From IMG/VR virus record IMGVR_UViG_3300046683_000116, positions 1 to 41,007 of that record: a stretch of 41,007 nt of DNA. One strand, 5' to 3'. Of the stretch, positions 2,011-41,007 are shown one piece after another. This DNA is from a virus. The translations under genes and the position numbers were made by a program. Within the stretch, counting starts at the first letter, position 1. The number at the start of each line of letters is the position of its first letter. The notes beneath the pieces were generated by a model. That model was not told where the DNA came from. It saw only the letters and a program-made list of their open reading frames with translations, and searched no databases.

Positions 2011-4419
2011 TTAGACGACTACACCGCCAGGGCCTTGCGGCATGGCTTGCGGTGGTGGCGGTGGCGGTGCATGGCCGTTGGCCTTTGACGGTGGTGGTCC
2101 GCCTGGCTGCGGTCCGCCTGGTGGCGGCATCGGTGGCGGTGGCGGCATCAGCGCCTGCTGCGCGATCTGCATCTGCAGCTGTTCGATAAAATCGTCGATC
2201 AGTTCGACGACACCGCGCGAGAACCGGACCGGATGCAGGAACATCTTCAGCAGTTCCAGCGACAGCATCACCACCTGCGGCGGCGGTAGGATGCCGGTCT
2301 GGATCATCTGGCTAGCGCCCTGCATGACGGCGGAAATCGACTGCATCACCATCTGCATCGATTGCTGTTCTTCCTGCTCGTCTGCGACGACGGTGCTATC
2401 GCTTTCGATGTCGACGGTGCAGGTGCGCATGAAGTCTGAACGCAGGATGGCCATCACCTCTGGCGTGACATCCTCACCCGTCATGGCCGACAGCGTCGAG
2501 GCGTCGAAATTCTTGGCGATCAGTTCGGCCTTCATCTTCAGCAGATCGGTGACGAAGTTGGACGCCTGCTGTTTCTGGTCCGACAGGCGCACCATGCCCA
2601 TCGAACCCTTGATGCGCTGGGCGGTGGCGGTCTCTGACGCCTTGGTGGCACCGCGCATGATGTCGCTGATGCCCATGATTTCATAAATGGCCTGTTTGAT
2701 CTCTTCGCGAGCGACGTAAAGCTCTTTCAGCGCCGTCATGAAATCGACAATCGGCAGCATCCAAATATGGTTCTGCAGGCCGCCATTGATCATATCGACG
2801 CCGTCGACAGGGATCATCTTCTGGTCGTCGGCGTTCAACAGGTCGGCAATATCCCTGGACGCCGAATTATAGGCGCCGCGCACCTTGATCTGTTTCGTCA
2901 GGTTGGAGATCCGGCGGCTGGTCTCGTCGAGATCTGAAGCCAGATCGGCGTAAAGATCATAGAAGGCGCGCGGGATCTGGGTGTCGGTGGTGGTGACGGC
3001 CAGCATCGGCCTGGGAATAGGATAGAAACCGTCCAGGCCGTATGTGTCTTCGTCGACACGCATCACCATGCCGCCCAGTTCGCGGACAAACCAGATGATG
3101 CGTTTGTTCTGGCGGTCCCAGATCTCCCAGATCATCATTTTCTTGATGACGTCGCCAAGCTTGGTGGCGGACCGCATTGGCGCACCACCGCCGACCAGGT
3201 TCTTGGCCGCGCTCTCTTCGGTCCAGCGGCATAGTTCGCTTTCGACCTTCCTGGTGGCGATCAGATTGTCGAACTTGGCGGACGAACCCTGGAATTCGTC
3301 GATGGCGGCCCTAGCGGTGAACAGGTGGCGAAAGGCAATCCAGTCGGTGTCGCCTGGCGCGCGCACCGGATCGAGCAGCAGGTCTTCCCAGTAGACATAT
3401 TCATCGTTGACCTGTTCCCAGACCTTGACGTCCTCCATCGGCGGTCCGCCATTGTCGCCCATGCCTCGACCAGCTGCGGCAGCAACAGGCGGCGGCAGCG
3501 GCGTTGTGCCGTCACCAGCCATCACTGGCCGCTGTTCCATGTGAGGTATCCAGCGCACGCGAACGCAGCCACGGCCAGGCAGCAGAACGTCCTTGATCGC
3601 GGCCTTGACGCTCTCATGGCTCATTTCGTCTTCGACGACAATTTCCAGGGTTTTTTCGATGACCGACGCGGCAGCCTCAATCGCCTTCTGCGACGGCTTG
3701 CCAGCTGATGGCACGCCTGGCGGCGGCATCATCGGCATTGGAGCGGGTGGCGGTGGTCCAGCAAGCAAACCACCACCACCCATGCCAGGGCCTGCGTCTG
3801 GAGGGAGTGCAGGGGCTCCTGGTCCTGGAACGTCCGATGGAAGTGACGGCGGTCCAGATCCTAACCCAGGCGCTCCATTTACAGGCGCTGCAGGTCCGGC
3901 TGGCGGCGGATTGGTAGCAGGAACAGCGCCCTGCGGCAATGGAGGACCTTGTAGCGGCGGACCGCCAGGCGATAGGCCCATAGGCGGTCCCATCGGCGGC
4001 ATTGGCGGCGGCACTTGCGGCTTATCTGGGTTCGAAAAGCGCGCCCGTACAATTGGCTCTGGTGGCTTAGTATAAATGGCCGGAAGCATAGTTTCGGTGT
4101 TGGCAAATAGAATATTGAAAGTAATTCGTCCGCCTTTACCTTTGGCGCGGGCTGCTGGCTGGCTATTCTTGTAAGTTTGATTGCTGCTTTCATTGCGGTA
4201 AATCTGGATGATCTCCCTGCCACGCTTGCGCCAATCGCTTTCAGCCCGTTCGGCATCTTCCAGGCACCTCTGCCAATAGCCAGCATCGATGCCCATATCC
4301 TCGACCTGGCCGGTGTCATCCTTCGCGGTCGCGGCCAGGTCCGGTGCATCCGGCTTGCCGCTTTCTGCTGGCGATGTCGGTGCAACGATTGGGGTCGTGA
4401 TGTCTGGATCTTTGGCCAT
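2011..4419 (-). CDS. Portal protein (P22-like), with large Pro/Gly-rich insertion
   Basis: 802 residues. The portal dodecamer forms the DNA channel at the capsid vertex and docks terminase and the tail. The N-terminal part (residues ~45-128: W-R-x-x-A-E region, the FNILFANTETMLPAIY segment, EPIVRARF) and the part after ~245 (helical VIEKTLEIVVED, GRGCVRVRW, WEDLLLDPVRAPGDTDW) match P22-type portals. Between them, residues ~131-243 are almost pure Pro/Gly/Met/Ala, and the C-terminus (~755-802) is also Pro/Gly-rich. P22-like portals are usually about 600-750 residues, so the insertion explains the length. It lies 2 bp after terL, as is normal. Confidence 0.92.
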   Translation of the reverse strand: MAKDPDITTPIVAPTSPAESGKPDAPDLAATAKDDTGQVEDMGIDAGYWQRCLEDAERAESDWRKRGREIIQIYRNESSNQTYKNSQPAARAKGKGGRITFNILFANTETMLPAIYTKPPEPIVRARFSNPDKPQVPPPMPPMGPPMGLSPGGPPLQGPPLPQGAVPATNPPPAGPAAPVNGAPGLGSGPPSLPSDVPGPGAPALPPDAGPGMGGGGLLAGPPPPAPMPMMPPPGVPSAGKPSQKAIEAAASVIEKTLEIVVEDEMSHESVKAAIKDVLLPGRGCVRVRWIPHMEQRPVMAGDGTTPLPPPVAAAAGRGMGDNGGPPMEDVKVWEQVNDEYVYWEDLLLDPVRAPGDTDWIAFRHLFTARAAIDEFQGSSAKFDNLIATRKVESELCRWTEESAAKNLVGGGAPMRSATKLGDVIKKMMIWEIWDRQNKRIIWFVRELGGMVMRVDEDTYGLDGFYPIPRPMLAVTTTDTQIPRAFYDLYADLASDLDETSRRISNLTKQIKVRGAYNSASRDIADLLNADDQKMIPVDGVDMINGGLQNHIWMLPIVDFMTALKELYVAREEIKQAIYEIMGISDIMRGATKASETATAQRIKGSMGMVRLSDQKQQASNFVTDLLKMKAELIAKNFDASTLSAMTGEDVTPEVMAILRSDFMRTCTVDIESDSTVVADEQEEQQSMQMVMQSISAVMQGASQMIQTGILPPPQVVMLSLELLKMFLHPVRFSRGVVELIDDFIEQLQMQIAQQALMPPPPPMPPPGGPQPGGPPPSKANGHAPPPPPPQAMPQGPGGVVV

Positions 4420-4421
4420 CG

Positions 4422-5849
4422 TTATTCCAGTTCGTCGAGTTTGAAGGCGTTGGCGACCAGGTACGGATTTTTGTCGCCATAGGTCTCGCGCCGTGCCAGA
4501 TAGGGCCTGGACATGCAGGCGTAACGGGTCTCATCCACGGCGTGATCTTCCAGATCGGTGTCGAGATCTTCTGGGTTCGAACTGTCATGGATCATCATCG
4601 GCAAAGTGCGGGTTATGTCGCGGCAATGATTGAAAAAGAAGATCATCGGGTGACCTTCCTCTGTTCCCAGCAGCCTGGTGCGCAGCTGGTCCCAGCCACC
4701 CATGCGCTTATCCCTGGAAACGCGGATGTTGTCAGCACGGCGGAAATACACTTCCTGCCTGGACATGGTTTCCGCGATGGAGGGACCGGAGATGACAGCA
4801 AAGGCGGCAGGGTCGAGAATGCCGTAAGCGACATACTCGCGCTTGCCCGTCGATGCGTCAGTCTCGCGCTGCAGGATACCCTTGCCGACAGCCTCTGCGG
4901 TCATTCGCAAGCCCTCATTGCCGAAACCTGGCTTGGCGCCGTACCACTCGCGATAGCGCACCATCGCGCCGCGTGGAACCAGGTGGCCATCATGCTCGAA
5001 AGTGTCCTGGCAGATGGCCCACCAGCCGACGCTGAACGGCTTGGCAGAACCCCAGTCCATGCTCCTGAACTTGATCCAGGCGTTAGGGATCGGAAACGGC
5101 GCCAGGACATGCCTGGCCTTGTCGTATTCGGGGAAGAAAGCGCCCTCGACGACGTCCCAGTCGCCCTCCAGCCAGGCCTTGACCAGCTGCGGAGATCCGA
5201 CCGCCTTCAGGCGATTGACGTAACCAGGATCGTTGCGGAGTAGGGCTGGATTGTCCTGGACGCGCGACGGGATGAAAACGCGGCTGACGCCAGTCTCTGG
5301 GTCCTTGATGATGGTATTCGGACCATAGTCGATGAACATCGCCTTGACGGCAAAATGGCTGGGTCCGCCAGGGTTGCAGGTTGCCTTCATCTGGCAGCGG
5401 ATACCTGCAGGGGACCGGAGTGTCGCCAGCAGCTTCAGCATCGGCGTCAGCGATAGAAACTGGGTGATTTCCTCCAGGTAAACCCGCGTCAGGCTCCAGC
5501 CCTGGTAATTCTCGGCGTCCTTTTCGTTTTCCAGATACGCCATGTAAAGCCTGGCGCCATTGGTAAACTGGAAGAAAGCATCCGGCTCTTTTTTCCACCT
5601 GGCGGCATTGCCGAACAGGGTTTCTGCCGTGGCAATCGTGTCCTTCAGGTCGGCACGCCGCTTGCGCAGCATCAGGCCGCGCGCATCAGGCCCATAGGCT
5701 TCAGCATGCAGCCACCAGTCGCCCAGAGATCCGAATGTCTTGCCGCCGCCGCGCGCACCACCAAACACTGTGATATCAGCCGGACTGGTGATATAAGGCA
5801 CCTGAGCGGGCTGCGGAATGAAGCGGTGAATTATGCGGCCATTTGCCAT
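4422..5849 (-). CDS. terL: Terminase large subunit (packaging ATPase and nuclease)
   Basis: 475 residues. The Walker A motif GGARGGGKT is at residues 30-38 and the Walker B-like VYLEEI at 123-128; the RNase H-like nuclease has acidic residues at D265 (SMDWGS), D347 (ILDPAAF) and the DHAVDETRY segment at 435-443. The length is typical for a Terminase_6-type subunit. It powers DNA translocation through the portal and cuts the concatemer. It is the first gene of the long late operon. A promoter lies immediately upstream and no good ribosome-binding site precedes the ATG. The small-subunit candidate is 8 kb away. Confidence 0.95.
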   Translation of the reverse strand: MANGRIIHRFIPQPAQVPYITSPADITVFGGARGGGKTFGSLGDWWLHAEAYGPDARGLMLRKRRADLKDTIATAETLFGNAARWKKEPDAFFQFTNGARLYMAYLENEKDAENYQGWSLTRVYLEEITQFLSLTPMLKLLATLRSPAGIRCQMKATCNPGGPSHFAVKAMFIDYGPNTIIKDPETGVSRVFIPSRVQDNPALLRNDPGYVNRLKAVGSPQLVKAWLEGDWDVVEGAFFPEYDKARHVLAPFPIPNAWIKFRSMDWGSAKPFSVGWWAICQDTFEHDGHLVPRGAMVRYREWYGAKPGFGNEGLRMTAEAVGKGILQRETDASTGKREYVAYGILDPAAFAVISGPSIAETMSRQEVYFRRADNIRVSRDKRMGGWDQLRTRLLGTEEGHPMIFFFNHCRDITRTLPMMIHDSSNPEDLDTDLEDHAVDETRYACMSRPYLARRETYGDKNPYLVANAFKLDELE

Positions 5850-22163: not shown

Positions 22164-22384
22164 TGAACGCCGATCTTGACCAGGACGATCTGGTTTTCTG
22201 GCGCTACAAGGATCTGGTCGAACGGCGGATCGTCAGCGGTCGGTCGGATCTATCCCGCAAACAGCAACAGCACGGGTTCCCCCGTGCTGTTAAGTTGATT
22301 GGTGGTCAAGGTGGCGTCGCGTTGTTTCCGCGCGCCCAGGTCTCTGCCTGGGTTAGGAAACAACTTTCAAGACAGGGCGATTGA
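22160..22384 (+). CDS. AlpA/Xis-like excisionase or DNA-binding protein
   Basis: 74 residues. The pattern FWRYKDLVERRIVSGRSDLS ... HGFPRAVKLIGG ... ALFPRAQVSAWVRKQL is that of AlpA/MerR-like winged helix-turn-helix proteins, in which GFPxPxKL leads to the wing. These act as excisionases or activators of integrase. It is convergent with the integrase gene, overlapping it by 32 bp at the 3' ends, which supports an Xis role. A perfect 11-bp hairpin lies inside the coding sequence. Confidence 0.78.
   Translation: MMNADLDQDDLVFWRYKDLVERRIVSGRSDLSRKQQQHGFPRAVKLIGGQGGVALFPRAQVSAWVRKQLSRQGD
22266..22291. terminator. Perfect 11-bp hairpin in the xis gene (possible bidirectional terminator)
   Basis: AACAGCACGGG (22266-22276) and CCCGTGCTGTT (22281-22291) flank a 4-nt TTCC loop. 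On the minus strand it lies ~62 nt downstream of the integrase stop, where a terminator is expected. It also lies on the plus-strand xis message. No true T-run follows either way, so attenuation rather than strong termination is possible. Confidence 0.55.
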
Positions 22385-23561
22385 TGCCCAGGATACCTTC
22401 CAGCTTTTCCGCCCAGAGACGCAGCGCGCGTTCTTTGTCCTCTATCATCAGTGACCGCATATAGACGCCACCGACGCCAGGGATGGCATGGTTCAATACG
22501 CCCTCGATCACTTCCTGGATCACTAGGCCCTGCATGCCGGTGGCGGCAGTGCGGCGCAAGTCATGCAGGCGCCAGTCGCTGGTCCCTGACAATTCCTGCA
22601 GCAGCGTCTTCAGCTTCGAAAACCCAGAGATCTTATTGCCGGTGCGGCCACCGAACGCCAGGTGGTCGGCTTCACCATGCGGGATCTGTTCCAGCGCCAG
22701 GCGCGGCAGCTTCAGCGACTGCGGACGATTGGCCTTGTTCTTCTCAAAAGCCCAGGCGCCGTTTTCGATGTCACCTATCAGGATAGATCCGGCTTCATCC
22801 TTGCGCTGGGCTGTCACCAGCAGGAACCGGATCATCTTGGCGTAGCTCTTTGCCACGCCTGCATCCATCTTGGCGCATGCATTCCAGATCGCGATGATCT
22901 CTTCGTTTGACAGGACGCGGTCGCGCTTCTTTTCGCCACCGTGGCGCATGATGTCGAGCACCAGGTTATGCTGGATGATCTCTTCAGATGACGCCCAGCG
23001 GGTGACTGGTCCCAGGTAGGCCATGAAGCGGTTCGATGCATAGGGCGCTGGCTGGCCGCGCTTGGCTTTCTTCTGGGTGGCGCCAGCGGCGATCTGGTCG
23101 CGCATCAGACGCAGGTCCGCCTTGGTGAAGTCTTCCGCGATGGTGCCGATAAAGCCCAGCTGGGTGAAGGCGTAGCGCAGCGCGCGCATCGCCTCTGGCA
23201 CGCTCTTATTGCGCTTGTCATTCTGACGCAGGCGCCAGGCTTCATAGCGGTCGAGCATGTCACCGATGGTAGGACGGGCCTTTGCATGCACTGGAGCTAA
23301 TACAACCACCGGCACGCCCTGCTCGATCCTGGCTGCGATGCCTGCTGCCTGGTCCCTGGCTTCCTTGACGTCGACCTCTGGGAAATAGCCCAGGCGTTCG
23401 AACTGGTACTTATCGCCCTGCAGAAAACGCATCTGCCAGGTCTTCCGGTTTTTGCCGACGCGAATATGCAGACCCTGGGTCTGGGTGTCCCAGTAGGTCC
23501 CAGGCTTGGCGGTCCTCAGAAAGAGCGGTGTCAGGTTCTTCATGGCCATGGCGGTTTCCAT
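22353..23561 (-). CDS. int: Tyrosine integrase (site-specific recombinase)
   Basis: 402 residues. The N-terminus has an arm-binding domain (DUF4102-like: LHIRVGKNRKTWQMRF), a SAM-like core-binding region in the middle and a C-terminal catalytic domain with R253 (AQRKDE), HDLRRTAA (H333, R336), H358 (VLNHAI) and the nucleophile Y367 (GGVYMRS). It recombines attP with a host tRNA gene. A start at ATG 23549 is a good alternative, with a GGAAA site; 23561 overlaps an arm-type repeat. It is next to attP and convergent with the xis-like gene. Confidence 0.94.
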   Translation of the reverse strand: METAMAMKNLTPLFLRTAKPGTYWDTQTQGLHIRVGKNRKTWQMRFLQGDKYQFERLGYFPEVDVKEARDQAAGIAARIEQGVPVVVLAPVHAKARPTIGDMLDRYEAWRLRQNDKRNKSVPEAMRALRYAFTQLGFIGTIAEDFTKADLRLMRDQIAAGATQKKAKRGQPAPYASNRFMAYLGPVTRWASSEEIIQHNLVLDIMRHGGEKKRDRVLSNEEIIAIWNACAKMDAGVAKSYAKMIRFLLVTAQRKDEAGSILIGDIENGAWAFEKNKANRPQSLKLPRLALEQIPHGEADHLAFGGRTGNKISGFSKLKTLLQELSGTSDWRLHDLRRTAATGMQGLVIQEVIEGVLNHAIPGVGGVYMRSLMIEDKERALRLWAEKLEGILGINRPVLKVVS

Positions 23562-31099: not shown

Positions 31100-33079
31100 T
31101 TATTTTTCCTCCTTATGGGCGTGCGCACCAACGGCAGCGCGCGCGGCACCTTTGGCACCGCCCTGCATCATCAAGGTTGCTAGCGTGCGACGGTCGGCAG
31201 GTGACAGGGCTTCTCTGGCGGCCCGTGGGCCTTGGACGTAACGGTCCAGCGCGCTAATGGCCTTGCTGCCGCCATAGGCGATGGCCGCCGCTGGCCAGCT
31301 GCCGATCAAGGCGCCGATGGTAGCTGCTGCGTTGGCGCTAGTCTTGGCGCTGCCTTTGGCCATTTCCTTGACCACCGGATAACTGGTCCCTGATGCATTG
31401 CGCGCCCTTGGATCTGGCACCAGGCGCTGGTTTGTCGTTCCCAGGCTGCGCAGGTTTTCCAGTTCAGCCGGTGAAAACAGCGCTGATGCAGCGGTCGGGT
31501 TCTGGTCGAGGAAGTTGGCGATACGGGTGGCGCGGCGGCCAGGGAAACCGCCAGTCGTCAGCTGGTCAAGAACGATGCCGCGCACCTGGTCCAGTTCGCC
31601 TGGCGTGGCGCCGGTCGATGTCAGCCTGGTGATGGCGTCCGTCGCCTGCGGTGACAGCATGCCTCTATCGTTCGGCTGGAACAGGCGCCGCGTGTCCTCT
31701 GGGTGGTTTTTCAGCGCCAGGTCGGAAATGGGCTTGGCGCCTGGTTGTTGCTTCTCATTGCCGCGTGGTCGCTCGACGCGCGCCCCTTCGCGATAGGTGG
31801 CGCGGCCAGACTGCAGATCTGCCAGGGCTGCACCAGGCCCAGCTGGATCTGGTGACGTTCCACCCTGCACCGACTGTTCCAGCCAGTCGTCAAAGTGCTG
31901 GCGTATCCGTCCCAGGGCGCGCGCATCTTCGGTGCCTGGCTGGGCGGCCAGGCCGTTAATCCTGCGTCGCAGATGTTCGCCACCTGCCAGGCTGAACTCC
32001 CTGACATTGGGGTCTTGCGCCTGGGCGGCAAAGGTCGACAGCCGCGACATGGCTTCATTGGCCATTGGCGTATTCGGTCCCAGGACAACGTCAGGGACAT
32101 GCGGCACGTTGCCTGCCAGGTTGCGCCCGATATCGCCTGTCAGGCCGCGCAGCCGGTCGGCGTCGACCATCACGCCTGAATTCAAGGCATCGTTGATCTG
32201 CTGGCCGCCTGCCGTCTTCAGCCGGTCGACACGGTCCCTGACAGATTGATTGAGCAGGTCACCGGCCTGCACCGGATCTGCACCGCGCGTAGGTGCGACG
32301 CGGTCACCCAGGCTGGTTGTCGCCTGCTGCAGGGCGCCTTCGTTGGCGTTTTCGCGGCCCTGCATCATCCGTTGCGCCAGGTCGCCGCGCGTGCCTCTCA
32401 GCAGCTGTTCTTCGGTCGCCTGCTGGGTGATGTTGCCGCTGCGCTGGCCTTTCGTCAGGTTGACGCCGTGCTGCCTGGCGGCATCTTCTGCCGCGCGCTC
32501 GGCTATCAAGCCAGGTTCCCTTACGGCGCCCTCGACGCGCGACGCCAGGCCATGGCCGGTCAAGCCTGCAGCGATGCCGGTGGCGGCCCGCGCATAGGGT
32601 TCGGCGGCGGTGCCTTCCGTTGCCTGGCCAGCGGCTTCCGATGCCAGGCCAGCACCAGCGCCCAGGGCCAGCTTGCCAGCGAACTTGGCGCCACCTGCCA
32701 GCGGATTGCCGACAAAGGCCGGTGCGAACTCTGCAGCGGTCCTGGCATACTTGCCTGCCGTGGTCTGCGGCTCATAGCTTTCGCCCAGCAGCGGCGTCGT
32801 CGCGGCATGGATGTTTTCGGTGGTGACGTCAGGGACCCACGGGATGTCATAGTCGGTGATAGCCTTGCTGGTCTCTGGCGATGCGCCCAGCCAGCCAGCC
32901 AGTTTTGAGATGCCCGCGCGGCCCAGCTGCGACACATCACCCGCCATCCCTGGGATTGCCTCGACGCCTCGACGCAGGCCAGCAGCGGTCGAGCGTGCGA
33001 CATCTTCGGCGGTGCCGGTGACTGGGATCGAGAACGCCGTTTCCGGCTGGTCCTTGCCGATAGGGATGACGAAAGGCAT
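31100..33079 (-). CDS. DNA ejection / internal virion protein (659 aa)
   Basis: 659 residues, high in Ala/Gly, with long helical stretches and a small amount of hydrophobic sequence (about 120-190), followed by Gln/Arg-rich helices. This composition, its large size and place between the virion lytic protein and the fibres fit the ejected proteins of P22/T7-like phages, which are expelled into the envelope to make a DNA channel. No catalytic motif is visible. GGAGG ribosome-binding site; TGATG overlap with the upstream gene. Confidence 0.72.
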   Translation of the reverse strand: MPFVIPIGKDQPETAFSIPVTGTAEDVARSTAAGLRRGVEAIPGMAGDVSQLGRAGISKLAGWLGASPETSKAITDYDIPWVPDVTTENIHAATTPLLGESYEPQTTAGKYARTAAEFAPAFVGNPLAGGAKFAGKLALGAGAGLASEAAGQATEGTAAEPYARAATGIAAGLTGHGLASRVEGAVREPGLIAERAAEDAARQHGVNLTKGQRSGNITQQATEEQLLRGTRGDLAQRMMQGRENANEGALQQATTSLGDRVAPTRGADPVQAGDLLNQSVRDRVDRLKTAGGQQINDALNSGVMVDADRLRGLTGDIGRNLAGNVPHVPDVVLGPNTPMANEAMSRLSTFAAQAQDPNVREFSLAGGEHLRRRINGLAAQPGTEDARALGRIRQHFDDWLEQSVQGGTSPDPAGPGAALADLQSGRATYREGARVERPRGNEKQQPGAKPISDLALKNHPEDTRRLFQPNDRGMLSPQATDAITRLTSTGATPGELDQVRGIVLDQLTTGGFPGRRATRIANFLDQNPTAASALFSPAELENLRSLGTTNQRLVPDPRARNASGTSYPVVKEMAKGSAKTSANAAATIGALIGSWPAAAIAYGGSKAISALDRYVQGPRAAREALSPADRRTLATLMMQGGAKGAARAAVGAHAHKEEK

Positions 33080-34230
33080 CAGCCACCTCCTGGCGCTGTA
33101 CTGACGATAGTCCAGCTTTGGCCGATTTTCGGATCACCGCCCTTGTAGGTGGCGACGTTGCCGGTTTTATCGATGTAGGTCTGGCCAGCCTTCAGCTGTG
33201 TCAGGTCATCGTCAGGGACCGGCATCGGCGGCCCTGCCTGCGGTCCTGGTGGCGTTGTTGGTCCGCCTGGTACTGGTGGCTCATTTGGCGCTGGCGTGAC
33301 TGTCGGTGCCGGTGGCTTGTTCGGGTCCTCCTGCTTTGGTGGCGGCATCGCAAAATCTGGCACGACGTCCAACGGGTCGACGCCATGCCTGATGGCCACC
33401 TGGCGATAGAAATCGGCCTTTTGCTTATAGGCGTCGCTGTAGCCTGCCATGCGGCTTTGACCTTCACGCAACAGGCCAGCGCGCACCTCTGGCGCCAGGC
33501 GAGATCCAGGCTGGGCTGACAGGTATTTCCATTGCGCCATCAGTGACGACGGCAGGTCGCCCGTCAGTTCGACGGCGCCAGTTTCCGACTGCCTGACGAC
33601 ACTGGTCGGGTCGAACAGCTTGGCCATGCCGATGACGATGTTCAGGTCCGACTGTGGCGTGTCGCGGGTCGAGGCGTCTTGAATAGATGTCCAGATCGGC
33701 GTTGCCTGGGCCATATTCTTGTAGGACGGGTCGCTGATGACATCCTGGCGCAAGCTGGAAATATCGCTGGTCTTGTAGTCACCAACTTTGGCCGTCTCCC
33801 AGTCGTGCTTGGTATTCATGTCGGCTATCTGGTCTGCGCGGGTCCTGGCGTATTCGGCGTTGGCGCGGCGGGTGGCCATGGCGTCGGCAATGTATTTCAT
33901 GCCGGTGTCAGGATCGAGTTTCATCAGCTGCGCTGTCTGGTCCGGTGTCGCGCCAGTCTCTGGGTTGATACCAGCGATGGTCTGGGCGAACAGGTTGCGG
34001 CCAGCCTTCTCCTGGTCCTCTGCTGCGTTCTGCTGCAGGCCGTTGACGAAGGTGTTGGCCATCAGCGCGGCACCTTGCCAGGGCGATGCGATCTGGGCTG
34101 GGACCTCTGGCTTTTGCTGCTGCAGTTGCTTCTGACGCAGCATCAGGGCGTCGAGCGTGGCGCCACCAGTCGGGTCGCTGGGATCGACCGTCTTATGAGT
34201 GATGGATGTCGGAATAAGTCTCATCCCCAT
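33079..34230 (-). CDS. Ejection-type internal virion protein with Pro-rich tail (383 aa)
   Basis: 383 residues. The first ~280 are helical (Gln/Ala/Asp-rich with ATRRANAEYARTRADQIADM), followed by a Pro-rich linker (~285-330) and a small beta-like end (AGQTYIDKTGNVATYKGGDP, ~343-362). It matches the pattern of P22 gp20/gp16-type ejection proteins in size and order. The ATG at 34230 and one at 34224 are both possible. It overlaps the lytic protein gene by 10 bp. Confidence 0.68.
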   Translation of the reverse strand: MGMRLIPTSITHKTVDPSDPTGGATLDALMLRQKQLQQQKPEVPAQIASPWQGAALMANTFVNGLQQNAAEDQEKAGRNLFAQTIAGINPETGATPDQTAQLMKLDPDTGMKYIADAMATRRANAEYARTRADQIADMNTKHDWETAKVGDYKTSDISSLRQDVISDPSYKNMAQATPIWTSIQDASTRDTPQSDLNIVIGMAKLFDPTSVVRQSETGAVELTGDLPSSLMAQWKYLSAQPGSRLAPEVRAGLLREGQSRMAGYSDAYKQKADFYRQVAIRHGVDPLDVVPDFAMPPPKQEDPNKPPAPTVTPAPNEPPVPGGPTTPPGPQAGPPMPVPDDDLTQLKAGQTYIDKTGNVATYKGGDPKIGQSWTIVSTAPGGG

Positions 34231-34982
34231 AGTCTCCCAGTGTTAAGCCGCTGCATGGCCATCGCCAGGTTCTGGCGCTGTTGTGCCACCTGGTTTTGAT
34301 CGAAGTTGGCAATCTCTGGCGTGTCGATCCTGGCGGCGCCTGGCATCGCCATGGCTGACAGCGTCGTGTCATTCTTGGCAATCGCTGGCATCTTGAAGCC
34401 GGTGGCGGCCTTTGCCAGTTTCTTGCGAAGGTCACTAAATGGCGATTTAGCGGCCACCTCTGTATTGCCGGTTGGCTGGACTGGGCCTTGAACGGGTGGC
34501 TGCACTGGGCCTTGAACCTGCGGTGCGGTCGGACCCTGGACGCCTGGAGCAAGCGGCGCCTGGGCCTGGCCGTTCAGCGGCATCGTCGACTGCGCGACCG
34601 TTGGCGCACCGTTGATACCCATGCGGCCCGTGATGCCTTCAGCAGCGGCGCCCATCCATGGTTTCCAGGTGCCGCCGTTGACGAAATGGTCGAGGACGAA
34701 ATCGGTCTGCTGCCGCCAGGTCGAGGGGTCCTTTGCGCTTAGGCCGGTCTTTGCGGTGAAGTCATCGCCCATGCCAGCGTTCGGCATCGATTTTGAAATG
34801 CCTTTGTAGTGCAGCTGGTAGGGTCCGAAACTCGACCCTTCATCACCGCCCATATCCGGCTTGTTTGGATCAAAGACGTTCAGCCCTTCATGGCCAAAAG
34901 CGCGCACGACTGTCGCAGGGTCGATGCCCCTGCGCTTGGCGCCTTCGATCAGATAGTTCAGAACGTCTGGGTTCGCGGCCAT
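34221..34982 (-). CDS. Virion-associated lytic protein (lysozyme/transglycosylase-like)
   Basis: 253 residues. The N-terminal domain (1-~110) resembles a lytic transglycosylase/lysozyme: a helix, RAFGHEGLN with a possible catalytic Glu near residue 32, and GSSFGPYQLHYKG, the usual G-x-x-G-x-Y-Q element. The remainder is Pro/Gln-rich linker (PVQPPVQGPVQPTG) and a helical tail. It would cut peptidoglycan during DNA entry. It directly abuts the Pro/Gly-rich gene (TAAATG). Confidence 0.8.
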   Translation of the reverse strand: MAANPDVLNYLIEGAKRRGIDPATVVRAFGHEGLNVFDPNKPDMGGDEGSSFGPYQLHYKGISKSMPNAGMGDDFTAKTGLSAKDPSTWRQQTDFVLDHFVNGGTWKPWMGAAAEGITGRMGINGAPTVAQSTMPLNGQAQAPLAPGVQGPTAPQVQGPVQPPVQGPVQPTGNTEVAAKSPFSDLRKKLAKAATGFKMPAIAKNDTTLSAMAMPGAARIDTPEIANFDQNQVAQQRQNLAMAMQRLNTGRLWG

Positions 34983-35399
34983 TTACCTCGCGCCCCCTTG
35001 CTGCATCCGCTGCATCAGCGCCTGCATCATCGCCGGATTGCCCTGCATCGGTGCACCACCAGGCGGACCACCCATTGGCGGACCTGGTGGCATGGCGCCC
35101 ATCGGCGGCGGACCGCCTGGCACTGGTCCTGCCATCGCTGGCATCGGTGCCTGCTGCGGCATCAGCTGCGCGGGTGGTGGCGGTGCCATCGCAGGTCCGG
35201 CATCCATCGGCTGGACTGGCGGCGGTCCGCCACCCCCTCCCCCGCCTTGACCTTTCAGACCCAGCAGGCCAGGACCGCCACGAATGCCCAGCAGGCCGCC
35301 AGCCAGCTTGCCAGGATCTGCGTTCTGCGGAATGCCGCCAGCCTGTTCTTGCGGTGATGGAACCTGGCTTCCGCCCATCATCTGGTTGATAAATGGCAT
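34983..35399 (-). CDS. Pro/Gly/Met-rich low-complexity virion protein (138 aa)
   Basis: 138 residues, almost entirely Pro, Gly, Met, Ala and Gln: repeated GGPP, PPMG and MQ patterns with a poly-Gly tract near 51-58. AGGAGA ribosome-binding site. It shares the PPMGPPM/GGPP style of the portal insertion, and must be largely disordered. Function unknown; located between tail hub/ejection genes, so it is probably a virion or assembly component. Confidence 0.7.
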   Translation of the reverse strand: MPFINQMMGGSQVPSPQEQAGGIPQNADPGKLAGGLLGIRGGPGLLGLKGQGGGGGGGPPPVQPMDAGPAMAPPPPAQLMPQQAPMPAMAGPVPGGPPPMGAMPPGPPMGGPPGGAPMQGNPAMMQALMQRMQQGGAR

Positions 35400-35411
35400 G
35401 TCGTTTCTCCT

Positions 35412-36320
35412 TTAGAGCAGGCCCATGAAGGCGCTGCCTAGACCGAAAATCCCTGCATTCGTGTTGGCGGCGGCGTTGGCCTGGTTGGCGTAATTCTGGC
35501 TGATGTACTGGCCGATTGGCGCGGTATCGACGCCCTGACGGCTGAACGGCTGGAACTGCGGCACCGACACCTGGGACCCTGACATCAGGGCTGAAATCTC
35601 ATTGATCGGTGCATTTCTGACGGTCTGTTTTTCACCCAGCTGGGCGCCGCGCAGATTGTTCAGGAAGGACGCATAATCCATCTGCTGGGTGTTTCCGGCC
35701 CGTTCGTCTGCCAGCATCCTCGATTGTTCGGTGCCACCTGCCAGGATGGCGGCCATGCCTGCATCGGTGTCTGCGCGGTTCTCGCTGTCCTGGACAGACC
35801 CCCAATTCTTAGAACCTGGCGCCAGCCCACGCGCGGCCAGCTGGCTTTCCTGGGCCTGGCGTGCTGGATCTGCCTGGGTCCGATAGCGTTCCATCAGCGC
35901 GTTCGTCACCTGGTCGCGCTGGGTTGCATAGGCGTTCGGATCGTAGGCGGTCGGCGCCACGCCACGGTTCCAGTCCTCAATCCCTGACGTGTCCAGGTTG
36001 GTTCCCAAAAGGCCCTGAAGCCTCGACGACTGGGACACGCCCAGTTCGCCCAGGTTGCCCTGCATCTGGCTTTGGAGATCGTAAAGCCGCTGCTGTTCCG
36101 GTGACAGCTGGACGTCGCGCTCATAGCGCGGAACTGACATGGCCTTGCCGTTGGCATCATAGACGGTGCCGCTGCCAATCTGGTTATAGGTCACAGTGCC
36201 ATAAGGGTTTTTCTCATTGGCATTGTTAATGATAGCGCTGGCCGCCGCTGACCCTACGTTGGCGTTCTGTTGTGCTGACGCCGTGTCGTAGGGGTCCGGT
36301 GACTTCGGCTGGCTGACCAT
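35412..36320 (-). CDS. Tail/ejection-module protein (302 aa)
   Basis: 302 residues, AGGAGG ribosome-binding site 8 nt before the ATG. It begins with a Ser/Asn/Ala-rich region, has a helix-rich centre rich in Gln (SPEQQRLYDLQSQMQGNLGE) and ends with an Ala/Asn-rich hydrophobic segment (ANTNAGIFGLGSAFMGLL), which may insert in membranes. Similar proteins lie in this place in P22-like alphaproteobacterial phages, I believe, often unnamed. A DNA-transfer or tail-tip role is inferred. It overlaps the upstream GNAT-like gene by 95 bp. Confidence 0.68.
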   Translation of the reverse strand: MVSQPKSPDPYDTASAQQNANVGSAAASAIINNANEKNPYGTVTYNQIGSGTVYDANGKAMSVPRYERDVQLSPEQQRLYDLQSQMQGNLGELGVSQSSRLQGLLGTNLDTSGIEDWNRGVAPTAYDPNAYATQRDQVTNALMERYRTQADPARQAQESQLAARGLAPGSKNWGSVQDSENRADTDAGMAAILAGGTEQSRMLADERAGNTQQMDYASFLNNLRGAQLGEKQTVRNAPINEISALMSGSQVSVPQFQPFSRQGVDTAPIGQYISQNYANQANAAANTNAGIFGLGSAFMGLL

Positions 36321-39413: not shown

Positions 39414-40367
39414 TCACGTACCAGTCAACAGGAGACGTCCCTGCATGGCGCGGTTCGACAGCGTCAGGCAGCCCATGAAGGCGATATGACGGGTGACGGC
39501 ATCCATGTCAGGGGTCTGGTCTGGAAGGTCGAGGCTTTCGAAATTGCGGCCCTCGTAGACTTCCAGCTTCATGTATTTGGTATTGATCATATAGCCACCG
39601 ACAAGGCCGGTCGCTGCACCATCGAATACCATGGCAGCAGACTTGTATTTCAGCGTTTCAAAGCCCAGGGCGCCAAGCTTGGCGTCGGCATAGCGCTGGT
39701 TTTCCTGCAGGCCGCTTTCATACGTCGAATAGATTTCAGCGTCTGCGACTACCAGGTCTGGCTTTTCAGTGCCGCGTATCAGCTTCATCCACAAGGCGTT
39801 CATGCCAGCTTTCAGGGCTGGATATTGCAGGCCGGTTGCCCTGGCGACAGACTGGAACTGGTTCTTCCAGAACGGCCAGGTGGTGGCGTCGATGCCGCCA
39901 ACGATGCCGGTGCCTGCATCAGTGACGAACGCTTTCAGGCCCGCGAAAGACTTCGCCACCGTACCATCCGAATAGACGGCTTTGGTGATGTTGTTTTTCA
40001 TGGTGGCTTCAGCGTTGGACAGCTTGCCTTCCAGAAGGTTCAGGATGCGTTCTTTGCCACGGTTCATGGCCAGGTCTGGACCTGAGAGGGTGACCGATGC
40101 CACGGCATTGGCCGGTGCATAATCAGCCTCTGAGATCGTTTCCTTGACCGCGCGGGAAAGCAGGTCCGTTCCTGTATACCAGGCGAATGTTTCTTCGGCG
40201 TAAGTCAGCGGAGTGCTGATTTGTTTGCCGCCGTCGACGGTGCGGATGCGATCTCCCATGCGCAGCAGCGCAGTGATCGCGTTGGAATTCGAAACGTTGT
40301 CTGCGAATTCCTTGTGGTAATTCGCAATGGTGGTGGCCACCAGTTGCGAGACGGTTGGCGATGGCAT
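39414..40367 (-). CDS. Major capsid protein
   Basis: 317 residues. The size, the N-terminal helix with SNSNAITALLRMGDRIRTVD, the MYSTY-like and long beta/helix pattern (IDATTWPFWKNQFQSVARAT), and the C-terminal arm (VTRHIAFMGCLTLSNRAMQG) fit an HK97-fold capsid subunit of the kind found in alphaproteobacterial podoviruses. Position right after the scaffold-like gene is the rule. A strong hairpin follows the gene. I recognise the family by order and length more than by a specific motif. Confidence 0.85.
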   Translation of the reverse strand: MPSPTVSQLVATTIANYHKEFADNVSNSNAITALLRMGDRIRTVDGGKQISTPLTYAEETFAWYTGTDLLSRAVKETISEADYAPANAVASVTLSGPDLAMNRGKERILNLLEGKLSNAEATMKNNITKAVYSDGTVAKSFAGLKAFVTDAGTGIVGGIDATTWPFWKNQFQSVARATGLQYPALKAGMNALWMKLIRGTEKPDLVVADAEIYSTYESGLQENQRYADAKLGALGFETLKYKSAAMVFDGAATGLVGGYMINTKYMKLEVYEGRNFESLDLPDQTPDMDAVTRHIAFMGCLTLSNRAMQGRLLLTGT

Positions 40368-40390: not shown

Positions 40391-41007
40391 CTATAGGCCG
40401 ACCTCGTCAGCTGCAGCGGCGATAATCGCGCGCATTCCCTTTGGATTGTCCCCTTCGGTCTCCGGTTTGGCCACTGGCGATGTTCTGCCGCGCACGTTTC
40501 CGCGTGCTGCTGCGGCTGCTTTCGCATTGGCTTGCCTTTGCTCGACGGTCTGACGCTCCTGCTGTATCAGCGTGTTGCGCAGCTGCGGGTTCATCCAGAC
40601 GGCAGTATCGTAAGTGTCGTGCAAGTTGCGGTTCGGGTTCGCCTGGAAAAGCTCGATCATCTGCGGCAGAACGGTATCGAAATGCGGGTGCAATAGCTTG
40701 CCCTGCGCATCCTTTTCGTCCGCAAATGTGTCGATGCCCCATCTGGTGACCCTTAGCGTTTCCTGCGACGTCGCTTCCTGCTGCTGCCTGTTAAAATCCT
40801 GCAGCTGGCCTCTTAGGGCCTGCACCTCTTGCGCCGTCTTCGTGACGTGATCAGCGAAGTAACGGATAGCCGGATCTGCCAAATCCTGTTCGGATAGGCC
40901 TGGGACCGGCTGGTTGCCTTGGCCGAATACTGCCGCTGGGTCCAGCTGCATGCGTTGCGCCATTTCCTTCAGCAATCCAGCCCGTTCATTCGGGTCTTTC
41001 GACATCG
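40391..41007 (-). CDS. Scaffold-like head assembly protein, C-terminal part (continues at 701-1)
   Basis: 3' portion of the 396-residue gene that begins at 701. The visible frame runs from the window edge to a stop at 40391; an internal ATG at 41005 is not the real start. This part is helical and rich in Gln, Glu and Arg (QQERQTVEQRQANAKAAAAA), a pattern of scaffold C-terminal coat-binding regions. It ends 23 bp before the major capsid gene. Confidence 0.8.
   Translation of the reverse strand, partial: MSKDPNERAGLLKEMAQRMQLDPAAVFGQGNQPVPGLSEQDLADPAIRYFADHVTKTAQEVQALRGQLQDFNRQQQEATSQETLRVTRWGIDTFADEKDAQGKLLHPHFDTVLPQMIELFQANPNRNLHDTYDTAVWMNPQLRNTLIQQERQTVEQRQANAKAAAAARGNVRGRTSPVAKPETEGDNPKGMRAIIAAAADEVGL
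40881..41007. repeat. Terminal direct repeat, right copy (circular-assembly overlap)
   Basis: Second copy of the 127-bp sequence found at 1-127. Joining the copies restores one uninterrupted minus-strand gene, which supports circular closure. Confidence 0.93.

Follow-up and report, generated by a model that had tools for sequence, protein, structure and literature searches.

A long, predicted disordered proline-rich wing loop distinguishes the portal protein of one uncultured lineage of short-tailed phages

Results

The window, i.e., the whole stretch of 41,007 nucleotides analysed here, is a virus record (IMGVR_UViG_3300046683_000116) with a 127-base direct terminal repeat (positions 1-127 and 40881-41007), and it is therefore probably circular and a complete genome. 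All genes described below lie on the minus strand. Across the joined ends, the gene order matches that of Mx8: terminase large subunit (terL), portal, small genes, a 396-aa protein in the scaffold position, major head protein. TerL (4422-5849; PF03237, phrog_979 and phrog_2) is directly followed by the portal gene, an open reading frame of 802 aa (2011-4419). The scaffold-position protein, which occupies the same position as Mx8 p47 and has a Pro-rich N-terminal stretch of its own, spans the record ends: its N-terminal part is encoded at 3-701 and it continues at 41005-40391. The major head protein (39414-40367) matched phrog_9953 (E 1.9e-77), and the neighbourhood of the four genes is that of a podophage-type portal.

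Four small genes lie between the portal and the scaffold-position gene, and their presence in other loci was scored by tblastn (E <=1e-3) against a clade of relatives, defined below, and 149 loci outside it. The first, directly after the portal, encodes an 82-aa Pro-rich protein (1743-1991), which was found in 3 of 42 clade loci and in none outside; short ORFs occupy its place in the clade loci examined, L004 excepted. The other three were detected in the clade only (0/149 other loci): a 170-aa protein with an IPT/TIG domain (1234-1746; PF01833, E 1.2e-6; 26/42 clade loci), perhaps a fibre protein or one that decorates the head, an 85-aa protein (969-1226; 16/42), and a protein starting MTVYVRRNG... 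that precedes the scaffold-like gene (679-972; 23/42). Elsewhere in the window, a 383-aa tail-module protein (33079-34230) is Pro-rich over a stretch close to the C-terminus (MPPPKQEDPNKPPAPTVTPAPNEPPVPGGPTTPPG...), and an integrase (phrog_1; 22353-23561) is encoded, so the phage may be temperate. No tRNA genes were found in the window.

The phrog_12082 profile, which also matches the Mx8 portal, recognised the conserved core of the portal (residues 45-656, E 1.6e-119). The original prediction had compared the protein with standard P22-like portals; however, a Pfam profile search matched no family, P22_portal (PF16510) gave no match even at E <=1, and membership of the P22 family was rejected on this ground. 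A match to phrog_156 was weak (E 1.1e-4) and confined to the C-terminal half. A PDB sequence search with the portal returned no portal among its matches, and a scan with P22 found nothing beyond close relatives of that phage and led to no useful profile. An AlphaFold2 monomer model, built from an alignment of 93 sequences, is confident in the core (mostly pLDDT >90, with 384 residues at pLDDT >=90), and a Foldseek search of the PDB gave 88 matches at E <=0.001 (best E 1.3e-12), those listed being phage portals or portal-tail complexes; the core resembles the solved podophage portals of Pan3, N4, Pa223, VP1 and T7. Core model and Foldseek matches together correspond to the podophage portal fold with wing, stem, clip and crown. 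The protein is an Mx8-type podophage portal (phrog_12082) of a divergent branch, with 121 residues at a wing site and a Pro/Gly tail; the short wing turn of ~9 residues and the helix-forming C-terminal tail that are usual outside the clade, neither of them a formal criterion of phrog_12082, are absent.

The wing site is occupied by a block rich in Pro, Gly, Ala and Met (residues 129-245; 3685-4035), as supported by composition, site length and pLDDT. It had been predicted at residues ~131-243 within positions 2890-4100; the block is real and its limits shift slightly, and that range falls short of the complete gene, containing the block and a portion of the portal downstream of it. Pro makes up 36% of the block but 8% of the remainder of the portal, aromatic residues are absent, and the highest Pro density over 100 aa in any frame of the genome is found here. 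Model confidence is mostly below pLDDT 50, and residues 147-221, all at pLDDT <50, have no secondary structure. Alignment and model thus bear out the prediction that two conserved portions of the portal are set apart by a long disordered stretch, and because the alignment places it internally, a natural terminus was rejected. If 12-fold symmetry is assumed, about 1,400 disordered residues would gather at one vertex, slightly more than the ~1,300 first estimated.

In the model, a beta strand (residues 121-126; 4042-4059) precedes the block and a helix (residues 244-262; 3634-3690) follows it. The insert-less relative L052 has at the same site a confidently predicted strand (67-71), a short turn and a helix (78-97), and the block is therefore placed by these models as a loop of the N-terminal wing rather than a channel loop or a terminus. 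HHalign and HMMER alignments to P22 or T7 were not significant at this site, so P22 residue numbers were not assigned.

To place the block among relatives we compared 192 distinct portals drawn from viral contigs, species genomes and phage records, with site length counted between a conserved Phe (128) and a conserved Ala (250). Among the 149 portals outside the clade the length is exactly 9 in 141 and 10-20 in the remaining 8, whereas it is 57-154 in the 42 clean clade sequences (121 in the window portal; 53-149 for the loop by a stricter count), and no clean sequence among the 192 portals falls between 20 and 57. One further clade member, L036, has 35 residues at the site, its left flank apparently being out of frame. 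In a midpoint-rooted FastTree phylogeny of 546 core columns, the 43 insert-bearing portals form a monophylum (support 1.0) on a stem branch of 0.75. Identity to the window portal drops from 57% to 37%, the interval between being empty in the set compared; no clade member occurs among the 50,697 phage records searched, and in 84,980 species genomes scanned, every relative returned lay outside the clade (best-segment identity <=37%). The block is thus retained throughout its own clade (43/43) and missing from the wider relatives (0/149), which bears out the claim of no counterpart as far as relatives outside the clade are concerned and restricts any description of it as common in the portal family to this clade. 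Across these sequences, it is a sharp marker of one uncultured lineage of short-tailed phages.

Pooled over the clade, the block consists of 41% Pro, 16% Gly, 9% Ala and 8% Met, with no Trp, Tyr or Cys; Pro always lies at ~32-51% per sequence, and clean lengths are never under ~53 residues. Between close pairs the block diverges faster than the core and with many indels, e.g., L008 and L009 share 86.5% identity in the block, with 7 gap positions, vs. 98.8% in the core. Estimates of dN/dS are ~0.1-0.5 in the block and 0.06-0.3 in the core, rough for distant pairs, in which dS is high or saturated. Codons for Pro are mixed (CCA 13, CCG 18, CCT 10, CCC 1), as are synonymous Gly codons, and GC3 is 0.48 in the block vs. 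0.72 in the remaining gene, which rules out GC or codon bias as its cause. In 36 of 36 clade members tested, Pro, Gly and Ala codons of the block were less often GC-ending than those of the flanks, possibly an avoidance of GC-rich repeats. Since dN/dS is below 1 and the codons are mixed, the composition appears to be held by selection and not by GC bias, and the comparisons suggest a block constrained in composition and free in sequence and length. Two further origins were rejected: tandem-repeat slippage, as arrays in the block are very short and weak, and an antisense gene, as the frames opposite the block are interrupted by stops in many relatives.

Two more Pro-rich regions of the portal had been missed in the original prediction. 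Alignment and loop lengths reveal a short Pro-rich wing loop at residues ~303-328 (3436-3513), and composition and pLDDT a Pro/Gly-rich C-terminal tail at residues 758-802 (2014-2148), in place of the relatives' helix-forming tail. In the relative L015 (4001-6559), another wing loop has also been extended by a long Pro-rich insert, with 134 residues between reference columns vs. 22-42 in other relatives, and the first block is short. Across the clade, lengths of the block and of the second loop showed no significant trade-off (Spearman -0.27, p 0.09). In the tail, median Pro+Gly is 0.48 in the clade vs. 0.07 outside, and the fraction of Gln, Glu, Lys, Ala, Arg, Met and Asp is 0.32 vs. 0.65, by which the tails outside the clade read as helix-forming and barrel-like. 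A C-terminal helical barrel as in P22 was not found in the window portal, the tail being Pro/Gly-rich and the AlphaFold2 confidence low past residue 757. In P22 the corresponding region forms a helical barrel (PMC5290284); in the virion about half of it is disordered, and a role in binding ejection proteins has been proposed for it (PMC4992974).

Discussion

Few machines of tailed phages are as highly conserved as the portal. Here a turn of 9 residues in 141 of 149 relatives has given way, in one clade and with no loss, to up to ~150 disordered residues, and the helix-forming tail has been lost. We infer, with a confidence a little short of even, that the disordered wing loops, together with the Pro-rich tails, serve as flexible internal spacers or docking arms near the portal and perhaps replace part of the barrel. 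In one lineage of Mx8-type podophages, the 9-residue wing turn has become a disordered loop rich in Pro, Gly, Ala and Met, and the helix-forming C-terminal tail a disordered Pro/Gly-rich one. On the ring, 12 loops that are neither charged nor sticky would then arise from the wing and 12 Pro-rich tails from the crown, all projecting into the head interior or into the gap between wing and shell. There they might act as spacers that hold space open during packaging, or as weak multivalent docking arms for internal virion proteins, candidate partners being the scaffold, the ejection proteins and the small clade-specific proteins encoded beside the portal; bulk, flexibility and composition would matter rather than the exact sequence. 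Such a polymer-like role fits because length varies while composition stays constant, and the clade-wide retention of the block, the change of the tail in the same clade and the three clade-only small genes also speak for spacers or docking arms. In P22, the partly disordered barrel (PMC4992974) and the wing that touches the scaffold (PMC12005531) offer precedents. On the other hand, the strong length variation and fast divergence would also suit a tolerated loop.

The main rival, which we consider rather unlikely, is indeed such a tolerated low-complexity expansion, in which the wing turn faces free space and a Pro/Gly stretch simply grew there without function. The variable site length (57-154), the faster divergence of the block with more indels than in the core, its low complexity and the expansion of a second, different loop in L015 are all as this explanation would have it; however, not one loss is seen in 43 diverse clade members and the outgroups are held nearly all at exactly 9 residues, the composition persisted through sequence turnover with dN/dS below 1, the mixed synonymous codons disfavour repeat growth at the DNA level, and the C-terminal tail shifted in the same direction.

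The spacer or docking reading could be taken further, in that wing loops and Pro-rich tails would together form a disordered proline brush at the inner portal vertex that has assumed the function of the helical barrel. We regard this as unlikely, but if true, an ordered coiled-coil tube would have been swapped for a polymer-like collar that organises the ejection proteins and the last DNA. One protein of the tail/ejection module (31100-36320), 138 aa long (34983-35399), is Pro/Gly/Met-rich like the portal block (58% P+G+M), a richness shared with L019 and weaker in L251; in the outgroup records that were inspected, no ORF in this position was seen to be equally rich. That the protein stands out in no more than the window and a few relatives weakens the case for a common Pro-rich compartment.

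The block may, as originally suggested, bind scaffold or ejection proteins, and would do so within the head. In P22, scaffold and portal touch at the wing (PMC12005531), where the scaffold C-loop occupies the cleft that neighbouring wings leave between them and is held largely through hydrophobic contacts (PMC12005531, PMC13386823). A narrower explanation, in which scaffold subunits are guided to the wing or tethered there by the loop during procapsid assembly, would agree with this and with the Pro-rich N-terminal stretch of the scaffold-position protein; it is nevertheless distinctly improbable, as the block showed no sequence motif that is conserved, whereas the P22 scaffold contacts are specific, and the mapping onto P22 residues is not significant by sequence.

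External display of the loop, or a place along the wall of the DNA channel, had also been suggested. Pro/Gly chains could make a lubricating lining in the channel. We hold both to be very improbable. In solved podophage portals the channel and the outside part are formed by the stem helices, the tunnel loop and the clip (PMC6702177, PMC12005531), the clip being the portion that points out of the capsid (PMC6702177), whereas the models of the window portal and L052 put the block in a strand-turn-helix of the N-terminal wing, remote in sequence and fold from these elements. That the block is an artefact, i.e., a sequencing or assembly error or the GC-driven translation of a non-coding or antisense-coding stretch, is a negligible prospect despite GC-rich DNA and long antisense ORFs opposite the block, as it is refuted by conservation (the frame is open in 42 clean relatives from other contigs), the codons are mixed, and the antisense frames carry stops in many relatives.

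If the block is functional, a disordered polymer can do part of the portal's work within the head, and the lineage would offer a natural experiment on the purpose of the barrel. The block also makes an uncultured phage lineage easy to recognise.

Among known systems, Mx8 and Mx9 are the nearest: their portal belongs to the same PHROG family (phrog_12082), and they share the order terL, portal, small gene(s), scaffold-position protein and major head protein. However, their portal is only ~29% identical, has 10 residues at the site compared with ~120 in the window portal, and ends in a tail rich in Gln, Glu, Ala and Lys instead of Pro and Gly. The portals of the cyanopodophage Pan3 and of N4, Pa223, VP1 and T7 have the same fold (Foldseek E 1e-12 to 1e-6) at only ~10-14% identity. 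P22 gp1 (P22_portal, phrog_156) has the general podophage portal architecture in common with the window portal, and its C-terminal tail is likewise partly disordered and a proposed binder of ejection proteins (PMC4992974), but it forms a helical barrel (PMC5290284) where the window portal has a Pro/Gly tail. No description of a Pro-rich region in a phage portal was found in the literature searched, most subscription papers lying outside its scope. The portal belongs to a known machine, of which the block and the tail are a lineage-specific variant for which we found no earlier description.
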